Origin: a bacterium
Lineage (GTDB): Bacteria; Coprothermobacterota; Coprothermobacteria; Coprothermobacterales; JAADFF01
Direction of reading: 5' to 3'
DNA length: 5,756 nt
Assembly (NCBI GenBank): GCA_027063755.1
Contig: JAMORD010000127.1
Coordinates: forward strand, 1 to 5,756
Shown: in pieces, positions 3,328 through 4,179 of the stretch
How the letters are laid out: every line of letters begins with the position of its first letter
Position numbering within the stretch: the stretch's first letter is position 1
Position numbers and translations under genes: made by a program
The notes under the pieces: model-generated
What the model was told of the DNA's origin: nothing
What the model saw: only the letters and a program-made list of their open reading frames with translations
Databases searched by the model: none

Positions 3328-4179
3328 GTGTATAAAATTCTTGAGAAAAAGGGGCTGACTATCAATCAAACTATGTATAAGGTAGAGGCCCCTCATGTGG
3401 CTGCAAAGGTTCAGCCCGGGCAGTTTGTCGTTATTAGGGCATTTGAGAACGGTGAGCGTATTCCCGTTACCCCTGTAAGGTGGGATAGAGAGGCCGGTTG
3501 GGTAGACCTCATTGTTCTTACAAGGGGTAAGACCACTAAGAGGATGGAAGTTGAACTGCAAGAAGGAGGACACTTGCTTGATATAGCCGGTCCTCTGGGT
3601 AATCCAGCAGTGCATTTTAGTGGAAAAAAAGTTTTGTCTATTGGTATTATGACAGGTCTTGTTGAGACTTTGCCAATTGCAAAGATGTGGAAGGAAGAGG
3701 GAAATACTATTATTTCTCTTCATGTAACCCCAGAGCCGCTGGTGATTCTCAAGGAAGAGTTTGAATCCTTTTCCGATAGACATGTTGTAGATGCATACCC
3801 TATGACTGAGACCTGGATGCAGGATATGGTTACTCATGCGGTTGAGTCTACCAAGAAACTTATAGAAGAAGAAAAACCTGACATGGTATTTATCGTCGGT
3901 CCCACCGGTGTTCAGTATGCTGTTTTTAATGTTGTAAAGGAATATGGTATTCCTATGGAGGTAGACCTTCACCCCATCATGGTTGACGGTACAGGTATGT
4001 GCGGTGCCTGCCGTGTGACTGTTGGTGGTGAAGTGAAATTTGCCTGTGTAGATGGTCCTGCCTTTGATGCGTATAAGGTAGACTTTGAGGAACTTATTAA
4101 GAGAAATGGCTTCTACTCCAAGCAGGAGCAGTATGCCATGGAACTTTATCTGAAGTCCATTCAGGGGGGTGCTCAGTAA
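3328..4179 (+). CDS. nfnA: NfnA-like small subunit of NADPH:ferredoxin bifurcating oxidoreductase, with altered NAD-binding domain
   Basis: A 283-residue protein of the NfnA/SudB (PyrK-like) family: a flavin domain (1-100), a nucleotide-binding domain (101-215) and a C-terminal [2Fe-2S] segment. FAD-side motifs are present: PGQFVV (30-35), ERIPVTP (43-49), GKTTKRM (67-73) and GPLG (88-91). The cluster motif is D220-x4-C225-x2-C228-x11-C240 in [13 protein letters not shown] and FACVDGP; the Asp is the family's usual non-cysteine ligand. In characterised NfnA the middle domain binds NAD(H). Here GGGVGIAP is replaced by GIMTGLVE (106-113), the GAR triplet by HVT (132-134), the DDGSxGxxG loop by PMTETWMQD (158-166), and GPxPMM by GPTGVQ (191-196). 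The overall alignment ([29 protein letters not shown]) is still continuous, so this is replacement rather than truncation. The protein therefore probably docks NfnB and holds FAD and [2Fe-2S] but may not use NAD(H). The start is GTG, set by the GGAGGTG before it. The stop shares one base with the nfnB start. Confidence 0.9.
4163..4171 (+). promoter_or_regulatory. Ribosome binding site of nfnB inside the nfnA end
   Basis: AGGGGGGTG lies seven bases before ATG 4179 and within nfnA codons. The TAATG stop/start junction indicates coupled, roughly equimolar translation of the two subunits. Confidence 0.7.

Follow-up and report, generated by a model that had tools for sequence, protein, structure and literature searches.

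The window analysed here, a 5,756 nt stretch of a Coprothermobacterota genome, holds an adjacent pair of genes for subunits resembling NfnA and NfnB, designated xfnS and xfnL. The middle domain of the small subunit departs from NfnA in all four NAD(H)-contact motifs, which raises the question of whether the NAD site was lost in this lineage or whether the pair represents another enzyme type, and which partner would then take the place of NAD(H). The features of the locus are as follows.

3328..4179, plus strand: xfnS, small subunit resembling NfnA (starts with GTG, 283 aa; top PDB hit 5VJ7_B (Xfn) at E 1.2e-112)
3454..3471, plus strand: a-FAD motif ERIPVT, residues 43-48, intact (family form ERxPxT, from PMC6405883)
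3613..3972, plus strand: middle domain, Rossmann-like and formerly NAD-binding, residues 96-215 (fold kept; dN/dS 0.09)
3643..3666, plus strand: GIMTGLVE replacing GGGVGxAP, residues 106-113 (Xfn form G..TG[IL]VE; from the alignment)
3718..3729, plus strand: LHVT replacing (L)GAR, residues 131-134 (as in Xfn; from the alignment)
3799..3825, plus strand: PMTETWMQD replacing DDGSxGxxG, residues 158-166, with length change (from the alignment)
3898..3915, plus strand: GPTGVQ replacing GPxxMM, residues 191-196 (Q196 invariant in Xfn; from the alignment)
3985..4047, plus strand: [2Fe-2S] Asp/Cys3 ligand motif D220...C225..C228...C240, intact (from the alignment)
4179..5594, plus strand: xfnL, NfnB-like large subunit with two [4Fe-4S], b-FAD and NADPH (471 aa; 5VJ7_A 734 bits, 5JCA_L 676 bits)
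5617..5640, plus strand: terminator-like hairpin 3' of xfnL (10-pair stem, T-rich tail)

The number of terminator-like hairpins in the region does not exceed that of shuffled sequences.

Canonical NAD(H)-contact motifs are replaced in xfnS

The xfnS frame is open and undisrupted and overlaps the downstream NfnB-like ORF (4179-5594). A family alignment with 50 canonical NfnA found none of the four canonical NAD(H)-contact motifs (GGGxGxA, GxR, DDGS, GPxxMM) in xfnS, as had been noted for its middle domain. The GGGxG site reads GIMTG (residues 106-110) with the canonical G107 and G108 changed to I and M, the GAR site reads HVT (132-134) with G132 and R134 changed to H and T, and at the GPxxMM site M195 and M196 are changed to V and Q; each of these canonical residues is fixed in the reference set (50/50). 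The T-DDGSxGxxG region is replaced and altered in length, with S164, G166 and G169 of the canonical proteins lost. The a-FAD motif ERIPVT and the [2Fe-2S] Asp/Cys3 motif are kept, and by its sequence xfnL keeps the motifs for two [4Fe-4S] clusters, b-FAD and NADP(H).

The replacements are residues of the Xfn type

Among proteins of known structure P. furiosus Xfn (NfnII, 5VJ7) is the top match for both subunits. xfnS reaches 379 bits with 5VJ7_B at ~60% identity, compared to 212 bits for NfnI and 195 bits for the T. maritima protein. The residues that replace the NAD motifs (TG[IL]VE, LHVT.EP and GP..xQ) are common to 5VJ7 and the Xfn of Thermococcales. DLHP is a further Xfn-type stretch of the former NAD domain that xfnS carries. 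Random motif loss was rejected, as the replacements match Xfn residues.

Positions were regarded as Xfn-defining if at least 95% fixed in 34 Xfn with that residue present in at most 10% of the 50 canonical NfnA. There are 27 such positions, and xfnS carries the Xfn residue at 26/27 of them, the exception being A104, which is S. The middle domain accounts for 14, the FAD domain for 11 and the cluster domain for 2. As these positions are spread over three domains, the whole small subunit, not the middle domain alone, has been retooled, with the altered domain maintained. The rest of the protein had been described as intact. This applies to the frame, the a-FAD motif and the Asp/Cys3 ligands, but the FAD domain also contains Xfn-specific residues (F39, P49, W52, W58, R66 and M73).

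The window pair shares the middle-domain signature residues and the cofactor motifs with P. furiosus Xfn. It differs by its bacterial host, by the absence of an NfnI alongside and by xfnS being five residues shorter in the DDGS region. P. furiosus NfnI (5JCA) and T. maritima NfnAB (4YLF/4YRY) have the same architecture, a-FAD motif, Asp/Cys3 [2Fe-2S] site and NfnB motifs, whereas all NAD-contact motifs are replaced in xfnS and the small subunits are only 36-41% identical.

A non-canonical middle domain is also present in four Thermococcales small subunits (L128, L129, L182, L183) which our analysis assigns as NfnIII-like. GGGVG and GPxxMM are missing there as well, the sites reading SDAVCGQAE and GGKLGS. 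Unlike xfnS they keep EDGSRG, are ~26% identical to it in the middle domain and form a separate clade (100/100). Their large subunits are near Xfn-L and group with it, as if exchanged or shared between the types.

The altered domain is folded and conserved

Between the two bacterial species that carry xfnS, dN/dS is 0.075 for the FAD, 0.09 for the middle and 0.10 for the FeS domain; these values are rough, with a middle-domain dS of 1.5, near saturation. Across Xfn, 36/120 middle-domain positions are at least 95% conserved. Purifying selection acts on the middle domain, and its low ratio together with the fixed Xfn residues supports the proposal that the protein was selected for another job and did not decay.

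The AlphaFold2 model of xfnS (mean pLDDT 91) resembles 5VJ7_B most closely (Z 37.3, rmsd 1.5 A over 269 residues), followed by NfnI (Z 34.2) and the T. maritima protein (Z 31.1). As the Rossmann-like fold is retained in the modelled middle domain, the loss would concern the NAD contacts and not the domain. The domain is 48% identical to 3LRX/3LYU, the same domain of P. furiosus PF1911. Under the title of a PF1911 hydrogenase domain, these two PDB entries hold the middle domain of P. furiosus Xfn on its own.

Proposed function and the third branch

According to reviews, P. furiosus Xfn shows no NAD+-dependent activity (PMC6405883, PMC7483475, PMC6085437). It has an NAD(H)-independent Fd:NADP+ oxidoreductase activity (PMC6405883, PMC7483475), and NADPH->Fd alone is not catalysed (PMC7483475). 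By homology to this enzyme the third partner of the window pair is probably not NAD(H). The large subunit would pass electrons between NADP(H) and ferredoxin by way of b-FAD and its two [4Fe-4S] clusters, and the most likely net reaction would be the formation of NADPH from reduced ferredoxin without NAD(H). On the high-potential branch electrons may still pass via [2Fe-2S] to a-FAD, and the remodelled middle domain, rather than being a functionless remnant, may accommodate some partner that is not NAD(H). We lean slightly towards such a live third branch in the window Xfn, because the a-FAD and cluster motifs are retained and the domain is conserved.

The strongest alternative agrees on the Xfn identity and differs in the third branch only. 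Here the enzyme would be a simple, non-bifurcating Fd:NADP+ oxidoreductase working on the large subunit alone. The small subunit would then serve structure or regulation, and no outside molecule would act on it as third partner. We consider this a serious possibility, albeit not a probable one. It is in line with the loss of all four NAD motifs and with the NAD-independent activity of P. furiosus Xfn, for which it is stated as unknown whether the enzyme bifurcates (PMC6405883). However, the a-FAD and Asp/Cys3 motifs are kept, and the 36/120 conserved positions and the dN/dS of 0.09 in the middle domain suit a binding site more than a relic. Moreover, the need for a second acceptor would account for NADPH->Fd not being catalysed alone (PMC7483475).

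It is quite unlikely that xfnS acts as an ordinary Nfn subunit which still binds NAD(H) in a different way. The middle domain does keep its Rossmann-like fold, and conservation in NfnA is noted to be lower at the NAD site than elsewhere (PMC6405883). Nevertheless G107, G108, G132, R134, M195 and M196, fixed in 50/50 NfnA, are all changed, and no NAD+-dependent activity is seen in P. furiosus Xfn (PMC6405883, PMC7483475), which has the signature residues of xfnS and is ~60% identical to it.

Phylogeny and distribution point to horizontal transfer

The small-subunit tree places xfnS inside the Xfn clade (100/100), apart from NfnI, NfnIII and bacterial NfnA. The bacterial pair of sequences is sister to Thermococcales Xfn (86/95) and not within it. 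In contrast, xfnL is nested in Thermococcales within Xfn-L (98/88; wider nodes 100/96, 100/98 and 100/99), and forcing it outside of Thermococcales is rejected by the AU test (p=0.014). It is ~71-74% identical to Thermococcales large subunits. Together with the 379 bits for 5VJ7_B and the 26/27 Xfn-defining residues, these groupings bear out the suggestion of a bacterial counterpart of Xfn. The trees and the Xfn replacement residues do not agree with an NAD signature that was erased in this lineage, nor with an independent case, as the protein was inherited as Xfn.

A close xfnS homologue is present in 59/61 Thermococcales genomes (360-400 bits), all other NfnA there (NfnI/NfnIII) reaching at most 222 bits. 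With an Xfn profile, only the window genome (G000) and its sister (G001) score at least 529 bits among 386 bacterial genomes, the next match having 248. Among 396 genomes around a Thermococcus, Xfn score at least 502 bits (336 for one fragment at a contig end), followed by 274. Both sets are samples and no census, with most genomes drawn from various families beyond the closest groups. No Xfn was found in two further bacterial phylum scans (136 and 9 genomes) run on sets without positive control. A contig pattern scan with narrow patterns detected Xfn among relatives only in the sister MAG and two Thermococcus MAGs. Nine genomes of the search set belong to the host phylum. Canonical NfnA takes the place of Xfn in other members of the order (apparently Coprothermobacter; L114-L116), and no NfnA was found in one related genus (G003). 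The sister species carries xfnS in the same form with 84% identity to the window copy.

The NfnA of L114, L115 and L116 have canonical NAD motifs and in 3/3 cases a [2Fe-2S] motif changed from DGTGMCG to CGTGMCG, so that the Asp ligand becomes Cys. This may lower the potential of the cluster if it is bound as a normal four-Cys cluster.

The simplest history would be that the Coprothermobacterota genus received xfnSL from a Thermococcales lineage that either branched early or is missing from the sample. Donor and direction rest mainly on the large-subunit tree, the small subunit being only sister to Thermococcales Xfn. We are confident in the combination of Xfn identity, horizontal transfer and a Fd:NADP+ role that does not involve NAD(H).

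Two other origins are highly improbable. A canonical bacterial NfnA of the host that lost its NAD site would fit the canonical NfnA in other genomes of the order, but this was rejected by the trees, as no bacterial Nfn comes as near to either subunit as the Xfn of Thermococcales does, and by the replacements being Xfn residues; in the individual domains xfnS is no more than ~0.2-0.45 identical to the NfnA of the order. One might also suspect that a contig of Thermococcales had entered a bacterial MAG during binning, since both genomes are fragmented, the sister is a MAG and the gene pair is archaeal-like, yet contamination was rejected by the gene order conserved in the sister (M16 peptidase, bPH_2 protein, membrane protein, xfnSL) and by the M16 peptidase, which has relatives across the host phylum and none in four Thermococcales, so that the contig is bacterial; xfnS is, moreover, only 56-63% identical to the Thermococcales copies, and GC is similar between the xfn genes and their neighbours.

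Between the membrane protein and xfnS lies a small ORF with a DUF3783 domain (window 2900-3120, minus strand).

Xfn in the redox context of the host

The window genome comprises 1.5 Mb on 251 contigs and is 88% complete, its sister 93%. The original prediction had raised the presence of a normal nfnAB elsewhere. Searches of both genomes found no canonical nfnAB, other NfnA or separate NfnB; gene content was sampled by searches, and at 88% completeness a canonical nfnAB could be missed in the window genome. From these searches xfnSL appears to be the only NfnAB found in the host genus.

In ten 12-kb Thermococcales neighbourhoods and in L035 and L036 there is no third linked partner gene, and only xfnS and xfnL are always linked. 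The upstream neighbours there are methyltransferase-like and Lrp-like genes, apparently unrelated. In the sister xfnL continues into contig C14, where the next genes (ABC transporter, pilin-like proteins) likewise seem unrelated.

In both genomes a gene for a GltD-formate dehydrogenase fusion comes directly after a NuoF-like gene (G000:C182, L215:3448-8816; G001:C39, L216:2580-9602); the fusion has 1406 aa in the sister. A NuoE-like gene precedes the NuoF-like gene in the window genome, and a formate-transporter-like gene follows the fusion in the sister. The nearest solved relatives of the cluster are Stn/NfnABC chains (9N5U, 9BOV, 8OH5). It likely encodes a bifurcating formate dehydrogenase or transhydrogenase and might connect NAD(H) with NADP(H) and ferredoxin. 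A non-NAD Xfn would therefore not deprive the cell of that link. Stn/NfnABC, which also have a GltD-like module, are another means of connecting these three carriers, and the related cluster is the one on G000:C182; they differ by NuoE/NuoF-type subunits and are not encoded by the window genes.

A sulfhydrogenase-like cluster similar to P. furiosus SHI, with genes for the beta, gamma, delta and alpha subunits and for a maturation protease, is located on G000:C78 (L033, 3356-7831, minus strand) and is a possible user of NADPH. A related sulfhydrogenase-like cluster is found in G003 (L119).

Significance of a lone bacterial Xfn

Xfn is now known outside of Thermococcales, in a distantly related bacterial host. 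In the literature searched NfnII is described from Thermococcales only; the search was limited and we claim no priority. The novelty is the bacterial host and an Xfn standing alone, not the enzyme type. The supply of NADPH may be re-plumbed by a single gene transfer. For the question of the third substrate of Xfn, which goes back to the P. furiosus work, a host with a lone Xfn provides both an independent system and a filter: the partner must occur in this second host too. It is conceivable, albeit less likely than not, that the host has no NAD-linked nfnAB and runs its Fd/NADP(H) balance on the acquired Xfn, bifurcating or confurcating with a non-NAD high-potential partner common to both lineages. 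If this were true, the overlap of Thermococcales and the bacterial genus could name the missing partner of Xfn.
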